Part shown: positions 8,207 to 36,640 of the stretch, in pieces
Numbering within the stretch: the stretch's first letter is position 1
How the letters are laid out: each line of letters opens with the position of its first letter
DNA from: a virus
Direction: 5' to 3' (one strand)
Virus record (IMG/VR): IMGVR_UViG_3300042328_000655
Span: 1-36,775 of that record
Length of the DNA: 36,775 bases
The notes under the pieces: generated by a model
Databases searched by the model: none
Seen by the model: only the letters and a program-made list of their open reading frames with translations
What the model was told of the DNA's origin: nothing
Made by a program: the position numbers and the translations under genes

Positions 8207-11200
8207 ATGTCAGGTATAGTAATTGATGTCGAAGCCAGAGTCAATAAGGCTGAGAGTTCACTAGAAAAATTAAATGATGTTGTAAAGAGCATTACAGCTA
8301 ATGTCAAAAATATTGACAAAAGTTTAGATGCTTTATCTATGAAAAAGGAAGTGCCACTAGATAAAACAGAGAAGGCTTTAAATAATTTATCCCCCAAGAT
8401 TGATAAATTGCAAAGCAGTACTGATAAATTATTTAAAGGTTCTTTGACTATAGATAATAAATATGCAAAAGAATTTGTAAACATTGGTGTAACAGCTGAG
8501 GCTGCAGGTAAGCGTGTTGAAAAAGCTTTTAATGATATTACATTAAAGCCTAATGATGCTGCATTAAAGAATTTCTCAGCTGAAATAGACAGGACATCTA
8601 GAAAGATTTCTAAACAAATGGCTGAAGGTATTTCTAAAAAAGATTTAAGAGATACCGAAAGCAGTTTGCAAAATATAAACAAAAGCATTACTGGTGTAGC
8701 AACCAATATAAATTCAGCAGTTAGCTCAATTAGCACAGCTATTGCAGCATTTGGCACATTCGCATCTGTTGGTGTACTCGTTAAATCATTGTCAGATATT
8801 ACATCATCATTCACTGAGATTGAATCTAAAATTGCAATGGTAACAGGGCGTACAAATGCCTTTGCTGAAGCTCAGTCAAATCTTTTAAAGATTGCTGCAG
8901 AAACACGCACAACATATGCAGCAACTGCAGATGCGTTCTCAGGTGTCGGACGCTCAATGAAAGACGTTGGTGCTACTAGTGAGCAATTATATAAAGTAAC
9001 AAAAGCATTACAGCAAGCGCAAGCACTCTCTGGTGGCTCATCTGAAGGCTTTAAAGCGGCAATGATGCAGTTAAATCAGGGATTATCTTCAGGTGCACTA
9101 CGCGGTGAAGAATTAAACTCAGTTCTTGAACAAGCTCCAGCTATTGCTGACGCACTTGCACGATCTTTACATGTATCTACAGGTGCATTAAAAGGTATTG
9201 CGGAACAAGGTAAATTAACAACATCGGTAGTGTTTGGTGCTTTACTTAAACAAGCTGATTATTTAAATTCAAAATTCAAACTAATTGCTCCAACTCTTGG
9301 GAATGCAATGGAAGCAGGATTTGAAGGCGCTAAACGATTTGGTTACGAATTAGATAAAGGCCTTGGATTATCTCAAGACTTAGCTAAAAGTATTACAAAA
9401 ATAACTACAAGTCTTAATACTAAAACAAGTGGTATTAGAGTATTTGCCGCAGATTTTGATGTTAAATTAAAAGAAGCAACTATTAAAGCTAAGGCATATA
9501 TTGAACCCTTGTCTAGAATTGTAACAGCGCTTGGGCAAGAATTCTATAGAGTATTTTCTTCATGGAAAATACCAGATATATCCCAAGGCCCTCTTGACGA
9601 TATTATTAACAAGTTTAAATTACTTGATTTTATATTAGGGCATACAGATCCTGCGGTAAGTACTAAAATAATTTTCAGACGTATAGAATCAGCTATTATT
9701 GATGGCATTGATATTGTAAGGAAATTATTAGATCGCGGTATTACAGTTAGTGATAAATTCATATTACCTATAATTGATAAAGTAGAAGAAATTTACCCAC
9801 AAGCGAGAAATGCTTTATTATTTGCTTTTAACAATTTGAAAGTTGTTATAAAAGACGCAATGTCTATACTATCTGAAGGCTTTGAAATTGGTACTGAATT
9901 TATTAAACCAATTATTAAAGAAATAAATAAACTTCCTGAGCAATTAGTAATTATTTTTGATAAAGTATCTAAAGCATTATTTAGTGCGGCCCGTGGTACA
10001 GATGAAATAGCCAGAGGTATGGCGAATGTCATTGACTCTATTACCGTTAAGACTGGTGACTTAGATAGTATTTATGAATATTTAAATAATTTTAAAGACA
10101 AAGTTATTAATATATTTTTTAAAATTTGGGATGCAGTAATTGGGAATTCATGGTGGACAGACACTATTGATACTATTATTAGTACGTCTAAAAGCTTATG
10201 GGAGAATGCATCACCTGGTCTAATGAAGTTTAGAGATAGTATAATTGCACTATTCCATACTATTTCTAAGACTATTCGCACATTATTCAATGATGCGCTT
10301 GTTAAGCTTAATATCGAATCATCTTCTGTGTCTTTGAAAATCCCTATTAGTATCGGTGATGCTAAAGTTCAATTTAAAGAATTATATAGCTCATTCATTC
10401 GCACATTTGATCAATTTAAAGATGATTTTCCATTACTATTCAAAGCAATTGCTGCAGGTATTGGTGCAGTATTAGCAGGTATGTTCTTGCCTTCAGGCAG
10501 TTTTGCAGTATTAGTTGAAGCAGCTTTAATCTCATCTGCAATACAAAGCGCAACCTTATTTGCAGAAACATTAGGAAGAGATCTTGGTGATGCAAGTTTA
10601 GTAGCAGGTTTAGGCACTAACTTAGGTATAGCAGCAGGTAAATTGTTTGCATCATTTTTATCCAATCTTCCATTAATCCTCAGTTCATTACTAGGATTTA
10701 TTGGGGAATTCACTAAAGAATTCTTAAAACAACTACCTATTATCGGATGGGCATTTAAAGGCTTATTCGGTCTTGCAGGAACACTTGGCCTTGGAGGTGT
10801 GATGGGCCTTGTAGGCGCATTATTCTTTGGTAAAGGTATCCTAGGTTTGCTAAAAACATTTGGGATAGCTACAAAAGGAATCGAGGCATTAGAAGCAAGG
10901 CTTTTGACGCTAGGGAAAATATTTAGCGGTGAAGGTGGATTAATCTCCAAGTTATTATTTGGTGGTGGAAGAGCCTTTCGCATAGTACCCCTATTAGGCC
11001 TTATTGCAGTTATCTCAGGCGCTTTTGATGGCTTATTTAATGACTCGACTATTGGTAAGTTGATTTTAGCAGGTGGTTTTGTTTACTTTGCTTTATTTGG
11101 AAAAGAAGGTCTAGCAGGTTTTGCACGAGTAGGAATGCTAGTTAGAGCAAATCTTGTCGGTATACTTTCAGAATTTACTGCTACAGCAGGATTGGCAGCA

Positions 11201-31426: not shown

Positions 31427-31451
31427 GCGGAAATAATGGTATCTTATATGA
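31427..31451 (+). promoter_or_regulatory. Phage RNA polymerase promoter candidate, copy B1
   Basis: A 25-base segment beginning GCGGAAA and ending GGTATCTTATATGA matches the copy at 31974-31998 in 22 of 25 positions. Length and TATA-containing end are like T7-class promoters. It lies 38 bases before the start of the 31490 gene. Confidence 0.65.
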
Positions 31452-31489
31452 TAATCAATATCGATTGTCATAACTAATAGGAGTACACT

Positions 31490-31973: not shown

Positions 31974-31998
31974 GCGGAAAAAGGGGTATCTTATATGA
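31974..31998 (+). promoter_or_regulatory. Phage RNA polymerase promoter candidate, copy B2
   Basis: Second copy of the GCGGAAA...GGTATCTTATATGA element, directly after the terminator. It would restart transcription for the genes from 32051 on. Confidence 0.65.
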
Positions 31999-32050
31999 AG
32001 TACAATAAGGTACCTCAAACTAACTTAACTAAAACCAAAAGGTAAATCAA

Positions 32051-32488: not shown

Positions 32489-32698
32489 ATGAAAGCAATT
32501 CGATTAGAAAACGTAAAATCTTTAAACAACCTTCAAAAAGCAAATTTAAGAGACGCTGTACAAAAAGCAAACCCATTTAAAGCGCTCTCTGTGTATATGG
32601 AAGGGAATGAGATTATTACACATTCTTCAACAATCGATAGTGTAATTATTAATGAGGCATACGGTCCTAGACAGTGGCTTATTGAAAGCTACGCCTAA
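32489..32698 (+). CDS. Hypothetical protein, 69 residues
   Basis: N-terminal helices (IRLENVKSLNNLQKANLRDA) and C-terminal strands (SVYMEGNEIITHSSTIDSVI). Its leader is identical over 19 bases to that of the gene at 32051, and both proteins begin M-K/N-x-I-R/K-L. Distant paralogy is possible but not shown. It is followed directly by the first copy of the repeated leader (32704-32729). Confidence 0.6.
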   Translation: MKAIRLENVKSLNNLQKANLRDAVQKANPFKALSVYMEGNEIITHSSTIDSVIINEAYGPRQWLIESYA

Positions 32699-32703
32699 TT
32701 CCA

Positions 32704-32729
32704 AGACCTGAGTAGGTCTCTAAACTGCT
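32704..32729 (+). repeat. Repeated intergenic leader, copy 1 (partner 32950-32975)
   Basis: Twenty-four of 26 bases match the second copy. The first half folds into AGACCT-GAGT-AGGTCT, a perfect six-pair stem here, with one mismatch in copy 2. Each copy starts a few bases after a stop codon and is followed, after a variable stretch, by TAATCCAAnAGGAA and an ATG. Confidence 0.75.
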
Positions 32730-32761
32730 TAAATTTTATTAATAATCCAAGAGGAATAACC

Positions 32762-32944
32762 ATGTTCACATACATGCTAGAAACACCTAACGATGAGATA
32801 CGATGCTCATCAACCTTCCACAGTGCTGAAGAAGCACTTGCGCACTCTGCGCCAATCACTGCAGCTCTAGAAGCTGCAAACTTCCGTGGCGTACACGTAA
32901 CTGTGTACGCGGTAAACGCGGACAACTTGCTGGAGGATATCTAA
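32762..32944 (+). CDS. Hypothetical protein, 60 residues
   Basis: Reads MFTYMLETPNDEIRCSSTFH, then SAEEALAHSAPITAALEAAN and HVTVYAVNADNLLEDI, a strand-helix-strand pattern. GAGGAA lies eight bases upstream. It stands after leader copy 1. No family recognised; G+C is a little higher than in its neighbours. Confidence 0.6.
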   Translation: MFTYMLETPNDEIRCSSTFHSAEEALAHSAPITAALEAANFRGVHVTVYAVNADNLLEDI

Positions 32945-32949
32945 CCAGC

Positions 32950-32975
32950 AGACCTGAGTAAGTCTTTAAACTGCT
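32950..32975 (+). repeat. Repeated intergenic leader, copy 2
   Basis: Second copy of the leader, with the hammerhead ribozyme beginning directly after it. In copy 1 the sequence goes straight from CTGCT to TAA-rich bases; here about 56 bases are interposed. Confidence 0.75.
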
Positions 32976-32976
32976 C

Positions 32977-33032
32977 GAGTTGTATATGGATGTGTTATCC
33001 ATACTGATGAGACCTAAAGGTCGAAACAGCTT
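32977..33032 (+). ncRNA. Type III hammerhead ribozyme
   Basis: All core positions are present. Stem III: GAGTTGT (32977-32983) pairs with ACAGCTT (33026-33032), seven pairs, two of them wobble. H17 is A32984, giving the cleavage triplet GUA. Stem I: TATGGAT (32985-32991) pairs perfectly with ATCCATA (32997-33003) around a GTGTT loop. CTGATGA is 33004-33010. Stem II: GACC and GGTC around TAAA (33011-33022). GAA plus A15.1 is 33023-33026. Since stem III is open, the type is III. Cleavage would fall between 32984 and 32985, 40 bases after the stop of the upstream gene and 71 bases before the next ATG. Confidence 0.87.
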
Positions 33033-33055
33033 AATTAATCCAAAAGGAAACTGAC

Positions 33056-33226
33056 ATGTTTAACAAAATTAAAAACTATTTTACAGCTGACAGAAAAGTA
33101 ATTAATGAAGCTAGCGATTTATTGGCTGAAATAAGAGCTGAACAAGACGCTGCTGATGAATTAGTAGCAAGACTTGAAGCGAAAGCTTTAGTGATGAAAC
33201 TTGAAAGATTAGGGGCACGCAAATGA
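33056..33226 (+). CDS. Small helical protein downstream of the ribozyme
   Basis: 56 residues, MFNKIKNYFTADRKVINEAS then DLLAEIRAEQDAADELVARL and a basic end (RLGARK). Likely an amphipathic helix followed by a coiled coil. AAAAGGA lies eight bases before the ATG. After ribozyme cleavage its message would start with a 5'-OH and an untranslated leader of about 71 bases. The stop overlaps the next ATG (ATGA). No family recognised. Confidence 0.65.
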   Translation: MFNKIKNYFTADRKVINEASDLLAEIRAEQDAADELVARLEAKALVMKLERLGARK

Positions 33227-34323: not shown

Positions 34324-34431
34324 TCGTTAGTATTATGTGCTTTAATTTTGCTTAATGGCATTCGTATAGAAACATTTACGATGTTTATACTGTTGACTTT
34401 AATTTTCCCAAGGAATCATAATGCGAAATAA
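34303..34431 (+). CDS. Small hydrophobic ORF overlapping the polymerase start
   Basis: 42 codons, MKNILQDSLVLCALILLNGI then a second hydrophobic run FTMFILLTLIF, ending PRNHNAK. CAGGGG lies seven bases upstream. The stop lies 11 bases inside the RNA polymerase gene. It may be a membrane peptide, or a leader whose translation controls polymerase synthesis through the surrounding hairpins. Reality is uncertain; no homologue recognised. Confidence 0.45.
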   Translation: MKNILQDSLVLCALILLNGIRIETFTMFILLTLIFPRNHNAK

Positions 34432-36640
34432 GTTAAAACAATCGATAGCAAGAAGAATGCAGTTAGAGATTGCACCACAAAGTCCTCTTAAGTTCTTAAA
34501 GGAAATAGAATTAGATACTATATTAGATGTAATAATATCTAATGTGTATTTGTATACACGTCCTAAAAGAGGGGCTGTAAATAAACAAATATTAATGGTA
34601 GAGGTTATTAGTATTATTGGGCATTCAGTAAGACGAGGTTTAAAGAAAGATTCATCTATTGCAGCTAAGACAGGGGCATTCATATTATATTCATTTGAAG
34701 AGCTTGGAATGCTTAGAGCAATACTAGGTTCTGCTGGTAATGGTCACGCAACATATATTGTAGAAGTTTTAGATGATGCAACAATACAATTACTATGGGA
34801 AGGTGTAAGCAGAGAAGGTGCCAAAGGTAAATTACCTTCAGTAACACCATATGAACCTTATACAGAATTCAAACACCCTACTGGACAAGTATTAGTCAAG
34901 ACAGGGAATAAAGATGTTCCAACAAAATTAACACCTGCAACACATCCTATAGTATTTGATTCAGTAAATAAGAGCTTAAATACGGGTTGGCAAATAAACA
35001 AAGAAGTTTATAATGTTTCTAAATGGGCATTGAATAACCATACTGATGCATTTAGTGATATATGGGAGCAGCAAAATCCTCAAGCTAAGACTACTAAATT
35101 AAGGGAAACAAAAGCTATTCTATCTATAGCAGATAAGTTCATGGATACTGTATTTTACCATATGTATTACCTTGATTTCCGTGGAAGGAAATATCCAACA
35201 ACGGCATATCTCCATGAACAATCTAGTGATATTGCTAAAGGTCTTTTAATGCGTCAAGATAAGAAAGCAATTGGTGAAGAGGGTTTCTTTTGGCTATGTG
35301 TATCTATCGCCAGTAACTGGGCAGGTTCATCAGGACGTGAAGATGGTGCAAAGACGGATAAGATCAATCTCAAAGACCGATATCAGTGGGTGTTAGACAA
35401 TCAAGAGATTTTATTATCATATGCAGAAAGTCCAAAAGTAAATCAAGGATGGATGTCAGGAGATAAGCCATGGCAATTCTTAAGTGCATGTATTGAATTA
35501 AGAAATGCTTTAAAATTGGGACCAAGATATTTAGAGTATGAGTCACATGTTGAATGCTTTATTGACGGATCAACGAACGGCTCACAACATTTATCTGCGT
35601 TAACAAGAGATGAAATAACAGCCCCATATGTTAATTTAATTCCATTAGAACTTCCAGGTGATTTATATGCATATGTTGCCGAACATGTATGGAATAAAAT
35701 ATCTAATGACATAGCAAGAATGCCAGCGGATTTAATCTTTCAATGTGAAGATTTTATAGATGGCTTAATTAAATTAAAGAAAAAGATTACTGCATCCGAA
35801 CCTAAGTCTGAAATTAGGAATCAACTAGTAGCTCAAATTAAAGCCTATAAACAACAATGGGCTGATATTGGCTCTGTTGCAGCACCTGTATTTTGGAATC
35901 GTATAAAAGATTTGAAACAAAGAAGGAAGATAGTTAAAAGAAACACTATGACTCTTCCCTATGGAGGCAGCAGCTATGGATTGGGAGAGCAACAAATCCT
36001 TGATGCAAAAAAGCATGGAATAGACTTGCTACTCCATATGGAGCATAAATGGGGAGCTTGGCTGGGCAGATTAGTATTTGAAGATTGTAAAGCTTCATTA
36101 GAGAAGCCGATGAGACTGTTAAATATATTTGAGAATGCTGGAAGAAACTGTGAGAAAATTGAAGAATTTTTATCATGGAATGTTCCAATAGTAAACTTTC
36201 CTGTAGTACAAAATTACACAGAAGGTAAGGTTAAAAAGATTTATGTACAGTATGGGCCACCAGTTGGGCCACGTAAGTCTACAGGTTATTATGAAAACAC
36301 TTTTCAATTAGCAATATGTTTTATTGAAGATGTGGTTCCTAGTAAAGGTAAACAGTCTCAAGGAGCAGCACCTAACGTTATTCATAGCTTAGATGCAGCG
36401 CACCTAGCACTTACTACACACCGTTGTGATTTTACAATTACAACAATTCATGACAGCTATGGTTGTTTATTTGCTGACATGCCAAATCTCTTTAGAATAG
36501 TTCGCGAGACATTTGTAGAACTTTATAAGGATAATCCATTGTTTCCAATAATGGATGATATTGACGGAGATCTTACTTATCTTGAGATGGGTGATCTTGA
36601 TATTAATTTAATTCTAGAAAGCGAATACGCTTTCGCATAG
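34421..36640 (+). CDS. T7-type single-subunit RNA polymerase
   Basis: 739 residues with all catalytic motifs. DFRGR is at residues 252-256. Motif A is FIDGSTNGSQH with Asp382. Motif B is RKIVKRNTMTLPYG with Lys506 and Tyr514, spaced as Lys631 and Tyr639 of T7. HSLDAAH is at 655-661. Motif C is IHDSYG with His677 and Asp678. The C-terminus ILESEYAFA is nearly that of T7 (ILESDFAFA). The protein is about 140 residues shorter than T7 RNAP (883); almost all the loss is before DFRGR, in the domain that contacts the upstream promoter. An insert of about 30 residues lies between motifs A and B. AAGGAA precedes the ATG. Confidence 0.95.
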   Translation: MRNKLKQSIARRMQLEIAPQSPLKFLKEIELDTILDVIISNVYLYTRPKRGAVNKQILMVEVISIIGHSVRRGLKKDSSIAAKTGAFILYSFEELGMLRAILGSAGNGHATYIVEVLDDATIQLLWEGVSREGAKGKLPSVTPYEPYTEFKHPTGQVLVKTGNKDVPTKLTPATHPIVFDSVNKSLNTGWQINKEVYNVSKWALNNHTDAFSDIWEQQNPQAKTTKLRETKAILSIADKFMDTVFYHMYYLDFRGRKYPTTAYLHEQSSDIAKGLLMRQDKKAIGEEGFFWLCVSIASNWAGSSGREDGAKTDKINLKDRYQWVLDNQEILLSYAESPKVNQGWMSGDKPWQFLSACIELRNALKLGPRYLEYESHVECFIDGSTNGSQHLSALTRDEITAPYVNLIPLELPGDLYAYVAEHVWNKISNDIARMPADLIFQCEDFIDGLIKLKKKITASEPKSEIRNQLVAQIKAYKQQWADIGSVAAPVFWNRIKDLKQRRKIVKRNTMTLPYGGSSYGLGEQQILDAKKHGIDLLLHMEHKWGAWLGRLVFEDCKASLEKPMRLLNIFENAGRNCEKIEEFLSWNVPIVNFPVVQNYTEGKVKKIYVQYGPPVGPRKSTGYYENTFQLAICFIEDVVPSKGKQSQGAAPNVIHSLDAAHLALTTHRCDFTITTIHDSYGCLFADMPNLFRIVRETFVELYKDNPLFPIMDDIDGDLTYLEMGDLDINLILESEYAFA

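Follow-up and report, generated by a model that had tools for sequence, protein, structure and literature searches.

Phage hammerhead ribozymes and a small exonuclease-resistant pseudoknot of RNA viruses are the described systems closest to the locus analysed here. Clustered hammerheads flanking prophage genes, with cleavage both in vitro and in E. coli, were described by Perreault et al. in 2011 (PMC3088659), in agreement with the statement of an earlier note on this DNA that hammerheads are known in some phages. The pseudoknot, named coremin or xrRNA_C (GUCCGAAGACGUUAAACUAC), is a motif of plant, fungal and other RNA viruses, which stalls the 5'→3' exonuclease Xrn1 as well as scanning ribosomes; Xrn1 resistance has been obtained with loops of 4, 6, 7 and 8 nt, including CGAGUAA, and the hexaloops CGAAAU, CGCAAU and CGAGAU stalled the enzyme in the BNYVV context (Dilweg et al. 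2023, PMC10520033). Our literature search found no report of coremin-type RNAs outside the RNA viruses of eukaryotes, nor any work linking coremin with phages or bacteria, a result which does not prove absence, and searching by the phage pseudoknot sequence described below, as well as for GP20-a/b, gave nothing relevant.

The window, that is, the whole stretch of DNA that was analysed, comprises the 36,775 bases of a viral record. It carries on the plus strand, at 32977–33032, a type III hammerhead in which the core is complete (CUGANGA ... GAA, H17 and the A15.1–U16.1 pair), reading, from 5' to 3', GAGUUGU (32977–32983), A32984, UAUGGAU-GUGUU-AUCCAUA, CUGAUGA, GACC-UAAA-GGUC, GAA and ACAGCUU (33026–33032). 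Three stems surround this core and the molecule is open at stem III, which consists of seven pairs, G32977–U33032 and U32980–G33029 being wobbles, while stem I has seven pairs (eight in the MFE fold) and stem II four. The earlier note had given the same coordinates, core and stem lengths, and its assignment of A32984 as H17, with a predicted cleavage after this base, 71 nt before the start of gene 33056, was also confirmed. A pairing search over both strands of the window returned this single type III hammerhead, and the same search returned none in 300 dinucleotide-shuffled windows. In addition, the MFE and centroid folds of 32970–33042 are exactly the hammerhead structure (-16.2 kcal/mol), with a folding energy which is in itself unremarkable (z only -1.8).

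The comparison with the type III model of Rfam (RF00008, Hammerhead_3), which had been proposed as a check, gave a match at precisely this place, with an E-value of 0.073 over the whole window, but its 27.4 bits are under the gathering cut-off of 48.5 bits, so that no gathering-level match was obtained for the hammerhead; a single-record search gave an E-value of 1.7e-5, but 8 of 14 control genomes also gave a signal there. That cut-off is a curation threshold and no defining catalytic feature. The likeness to the Rfam family resides in the type III architecture and core, and the difference in a short stem II and another stem I loop. Altogether, the hammerhead is almost certainly real and, judging from its sequence, very probably self-cleaving. 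Elsewhere, nine type I hammerheads were observed across 6 kb of one viral contig (L082:2292-8607).

The earlier reading of the element as a ribozyme likely to split the small-gene message was right as to type, site and probable outcome, but incomplete, the hammerhead being the 3' half of a composite whose 5' half is a pseudoknot. This second half, better conserved and more widely distributed than the hammerhead and also less known, was spotted through a 36-nt direct repeat, which pointed to AGACCTGAGTAAGTCTTTAAACTGCTCG, lying just 5' of the ribozyme, and to a copy at 32704. The pseudoknot occupies 32950–32977 on the plus strand, directly 5' of the hammerhead, with S1 formed by 32950–32953/32962–32965 (A-U, G-C, A-U, C-G), S2 by 32955–32959/32973–32977 and a spacer UUAAACU, and the final letter of S2 abuts or overlaps stem III of the ribozyme. 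The second copy (32704–32731, plus strand) has no hammerhead, and its GAC starts 6 nt past the stop of the gene at 32489–32698.

Viral contigs were scanned with the pattern GACCTGAGTANGTCNNTAAANTG and with further patterns in which a stem was swapped or the loop was freed, all counts being lower bounds, and at least 380 distinct copies were collected from hundreds of phage and prophage contigs. Since the scans fix part of the pattern, the conservation of the fixed letters is no evidence, covariation is taken from the free columns only, and how often each of the two S1 types was counted depends on the choice of patterns. The three free positions of S2 are paired in 374, 375 and 340 of the 380 distinct copies among the matches listed, with varied pair types (GAGC/GCTC, AAGC/GCTT, GGAC/GTCC, GGGC/GCCC, AGGC/GCCT and GAAC/GTTC), which amounts to 1089 paired cells out of 1140, compared with 438–653 when the partner was slid by 1–2 columns. 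The outer, closing pair of S1 was formed in 287 of 380 copies, where 160 were expected, and in forms with longer loops S2 becomes longer in step. The consensus, N-GWC C URRRY A N GWC-N' N UAAACU GYYYA, thus describes a covarying hairpin whose loop pairs behind the spacer UAAACU, which identifies the element as an H-type pseudoknot. That it might be the remnant of a second hammerhead was rejected, because it covaries in its own right and also occurs widely where hammerheads are absent, and a mere inverted-repeat protein site is unlikely, since S2 pairs only as a pseudoknot.

As in coremin, the phage pseudoknot has a GUC/GAC-type hp1 stem followed by the spacer NNUAAACU, the likeness extending to an hp1 of 3–4 bp (GWC/GWC) and to a loop with C first and A-D last. 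Its letters also agree with the larger-loop forms of coremin. The class found in the window differs from coremin in its 8-nt loop and its S2 of 4–5 bp, and it belongs to the mRNA of a DNA phage, not to an RNA virus genome. Its octaloop, CUGAGUAA, has C first and A-D last but U in second place, and thereby departs from the coremin loop consensus YGAD / YGNNAD, carrying CU where the tested coremin hexaloops need CG. Furthermore, there is no general strong downstream hairpin (hp2), this being only slightly enriched after the phage pseudoknots; in the window, stem III of the hammerhead stands there. In other phages, the exact coremin hexaloop form, GUCCGNNADGACGUUAAACU, was found in at least 120 phage or prophage stretches, its hexaloops including CGAAAU, CGCAAU and CGAGAU, so that this 20-nt sequence is identical to tested coremin forms, and the tetraloop form gave one match. 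Several of the exact hexaloop copies begin 1–3 nt past tRNA or tRNA-like genes (L570:624-1023, L654:11088-11190 and L651:4064-4160).

Rfam recognized none of the pseudoknots except for a weak match to GP20-b (RF03003) at one of them, 21.9 bits against a cut-off of 36.2, which starts at the pseudoknot of a Lactobacillus-type prophage contig (L154:981-1048); within the window, no RF03003 match was obtained. GP20-b resembles the phage pseudoknot in being small and able to form a pseudoknot, with UAAAA as its spacer and a classification as cis-regulatory, but its loop and S2 layout are different. Judging from its name, GP20-b lies upstream of phage scaffold (GP20) genes; pseudoknots are likewise found near scaffold genes in Lactobacillus prophages, and GP20-b might be related to this class of pseudoknots.

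The placement of the pseudoknot is intergenic, only 5 of 321 copies among the matches listed lying within a gene on the coding strand. It usually begins 5–15 nt past a stop codon; the distances have a sharp lower limit of 5 nt and are most often 6 nt (63 of 242 among the matches listed), which suggests that it sits as close to the stop codon as termination by the ribosome permits. It often stands 40–60 nt ahead of the next ATG. Stop-codon readthrough driven by the pseudoknot was rejected as a general role, since the stop-to-pseudoknot spacing falls in all three frames (104/71/67) and there are stops in two of the pseudoknot frames. The preceding genes are diverse, with Hsp20 in cyanophage-like contigs, while in Lactobacillus prophages pseudoknots lie between minor capsid and scaffold genes. 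The Lactobacillus phages KC5a and Lj771 likewise have one between the genes for a head protein and the scaffold. In three of the cyanophage-like contigs (L142:8725-8772, L182 and L247), a short GC hairpin was noticed just 5' of the pseudoknot, behind the Hsp20 genes.

The pseudoknot is also present in the genomes of Lactobacillaceae, other Bacillota, Calothrix, Micavibrio and others, and in some Bacillota genomes it directly precedes a terminator-like hairpin. Bacteria are not known to have Xrn1, but many possess RNase J, a 5'→3' exonuclease. An RNase J gene was found in 22 of 23 pseudoknot-bearing genomes, a count which is weak alone because most Bacillota have RNase J anyway. The pattern occurred in 10 of 299 sampled Bacillota and in 1 of 398 Pseudomonadota genomes, centres included, the one in Pseudomonadota being itself a centre genome; the Pseudomonadota sample, listed without class, includes many hosts without RNase J, and this host contrast is suggestive only.

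In the window, the composite lies among consecutive small genes, none of which has a family match. Upstream is a gene of 60 aa (32762–32944, plus strand), whose stop ends 6 nt before the GAC of the pseudoknot, and downstream of the cleavage site is a gene of 56 aa (33056–33226, plus strand), with a Shine-Dalgarno-like AAGGA at 33044–33048. The major head protein of the phage is related to those of phages DSS3_VP1 and EBPR siphovirus 1, and a J-like tail protein is also encoded. The single-subunit RNA polymerase gene (34421–36640, plus strand) was the query through which 18 related loci were fetched; family counts refer to 19 records. A second gene, at 210–1841, weakly resembles the C-terminal portion of RNA_pol (E 1.6e-4); the phage polymerase may accordingly consist of two subunits or be a diverged one. 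Moreover, the polymerase gene is interrupted by an insertion in relatives L010–L014 and L016–L018, at a site corresponding to the neighbourhood of position 35958 in the window, whose own gene is uninterrupted; in L012 the insertion (9531-9744) is a group I intron (RF00028, 58.7 bits), with an ORF of 151 aa resembling an HNH homing endonuclease.

Among the relatives, the small-gene region is a patchwork. A repeat, GGTATCTTATATGA-N4-CAATA, precedes small genes in the window (31438–31460 and 31985–32007, plus strand) and in relatives, and is probably the promoter of the phage's own polymerase. In L002 and L009 this GGTATCTTATATGA... repeat precedes the orthologue of gene 33056 in place of the hammerhead, in L012 it stands before the orthologue of gene 32762, and many relatives are without both pseudoknot and hammerhead at the window's site. 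Where the ribozyme is present, stem II reads GACC/GGUC in the window, GACU/AGUC in L004, L005 and L232, GUCC/GGAC in L014 and one L018 copy (L018a), and GGUUC/GAACC in the other L018 copy (L018b), and in L004 a G-U of stem III is replaced by A-U; such changes would be as expected of a working ribozyme. Loss of stem pairing without compensation, which the earlier note had named as evidence against the hammerhead, was therefore mostly not what the relatives displayed. In L015, stem II is only short, and L010, L011 and L017 have an extra U after CUGAUGA. The hammerheads of these four may be weak, and thus not every relative's ribozyme need be active. A pair count from the MAFFT alignment was left out, gap placement in stem III being off.

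These features led to the proposal, for and against which we see about equal chances, that 32950–33032 forms mRNA ends between two small genes as a module of two parts, a barrier to exonucleases and a self-cleaver. That the pseudoknot is such a barrier is a tentative assignment, its probability being placed slightly below even. With a similar reserve, coremin-type exoribonuclease-resistant RNAs could be widespread in DNA phages and prophages, where they would guard mRNA boundaries against the RNase J of the host, having been fused to a hammerhead in the window's family.

According to this proposal, cleavage by the hammerhead would take place behind A32984 of the co-transcript; the upstream message would then end in a 2',3'-cyclic phosphate, and the downstream message, that of gene 33056, would begin with a 5'-OH, with stems I and II next to it. 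The pseudoknot, with its coremin design, would mechanically hinder 5'→3' decay of the RNase J type and would probably also stop ribosomes drifting beyond the stop codon, decay and traffic on the upstream gene thus being kept off the ribozyme and the downstream gene, with a presumable effect on expression. Since S2 of the pseudoknot ends where stem III begins, the ribozyme occupies the place of hp2 in coremin. As long as the RNA is uncut, the barrier would protect it; once it is cut, pseudoknot and cyclic phosphate would make up the upstream tail, and the 5'-OH with two hairpins the downstream head. In the case of pseudoknots 1–3 nt behind tRNAs, it is tRNA 3'-end processing that would expose a new 5' end. 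In favour of such a barrier, a flaviviral xrRNA blocks RNase J1 in vitro (PMC5760640). After cleavage, the pseudoknot remains on the upstream fragment, and a 5'→3' barrier consequently no longer guards gene 33056; with the cleavage site behind the pseudoknot, the element could equally well protect the 3' end of the upstream message or keep ribosomes off the ribozyme.

One alternative is that only the hammerhead matters, as an ordinary phage mRNA-processing ribozyme inserted by chance into an older, unrelated intergenic pseudoknot. The prophage hammerheads of 2011, which flank genes, provide the precedent (PMC3088659), a pattern for a single stem II alone matches at least 119 viral stretches, and among the matches listed in a pattern scan of other phages 134 of 135 hammerheads have no pseudoknot within 150 nt, while the pseudoknot is common without a hammerhead. 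Nevertheless, in the 19 family records all 11 hammerheads are preceded by the pseudoknot, 50–53 nt before CUGAUGA, in spite of the divergence of the stems, when a loose neighbour would be expected to have been lost in some lineages, and only two pseudoknot copies there are without a hammerhead. In addition, the one exception among the 135, L115, apparently an unrelated phage, independently has the pseudoknot right behind a stop codon and then the hammerhead farther along the same intergenic gap. A chance neighbourhood is accordingly regarded as rather unlikely, and hammerhead and pseudoknot as probably a functional unit. Even less credit can be given to the possibility that the window's hammerhead is a decaying or inactive relic: the Rfam gathering score is not reached, and relatives exist with a weak stem II, an extra core base or no hammerhead at all, but the window copy retains all core bases and stems and several relatives carry compensatory changes, so that this reading is hardly tenable.

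The role of the pseudoknot itself might also be a different one. As a 3'-terminal structure after cleavage, and elsewhere as a cap behind the stop codon, it could shield the upstream message from 3'→5' decay, in line with its position between stop codon and cleavage site, ending 7–8 nt before the predicted 3' end, and with the Bacillota copies directly ahead of terminator-like hairpins. The copies following tRNA ends suggest the opposite polarity, however, and the identity is with a motif resistant to the 5'→3' enzyme Xrn1, xrRNA blocks being directional, which makes this shield improbable. Alternatively, it could be a cis-regulator binding a protein or ligand and acting on downstream translation, like the leader pseudoknot of T4 gene 32 or, as assumed, GP20-b; the frequent distance of 40–60 nt to the next ATG and the weak cis-regulatory RF03003 match would agree with this, but the downstream genes are of many kinds, in hosts of several phyla with no common ligand or protein apparent, and some copies precede terminators or follow tRNAs, leaving regulation of this type very unlikely. 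An exonuclease barrier coupled to a self-cleaver is the reading which we favour.

What specialists would find surprising here is the phage family of coremin-like pseudoknots. Should the pseudoknot indeed block RNase J, bacterial and eukaryotic viruses would share a trick of about 25 nt against 5'→3' exonucleases that are unrelated to each other, and a function would be gained for an element which is very common in phages and, except for the faint GP20-b match, outside Rfam. Also, the purpose of phage hammerheads has been a question since 2011, and it becomes concrete through a fixed partner whose biochemical role can be tested. Compared with the hammerheads described in that year (PMC3088659), the one in the window shares the complete core, the intergenic location on the gene strand and the expected cutting of a polycistronic phage RNA, but differs from them in that there is one type III hammerhead per gap, in a phage family with a single-subunit RNA polymerase, and that a pseudoknot stands at a fixed distance. 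The hammerhead alone is thus a known sort of element, while the module in which it is fused with the pseudoknot is a new combination.
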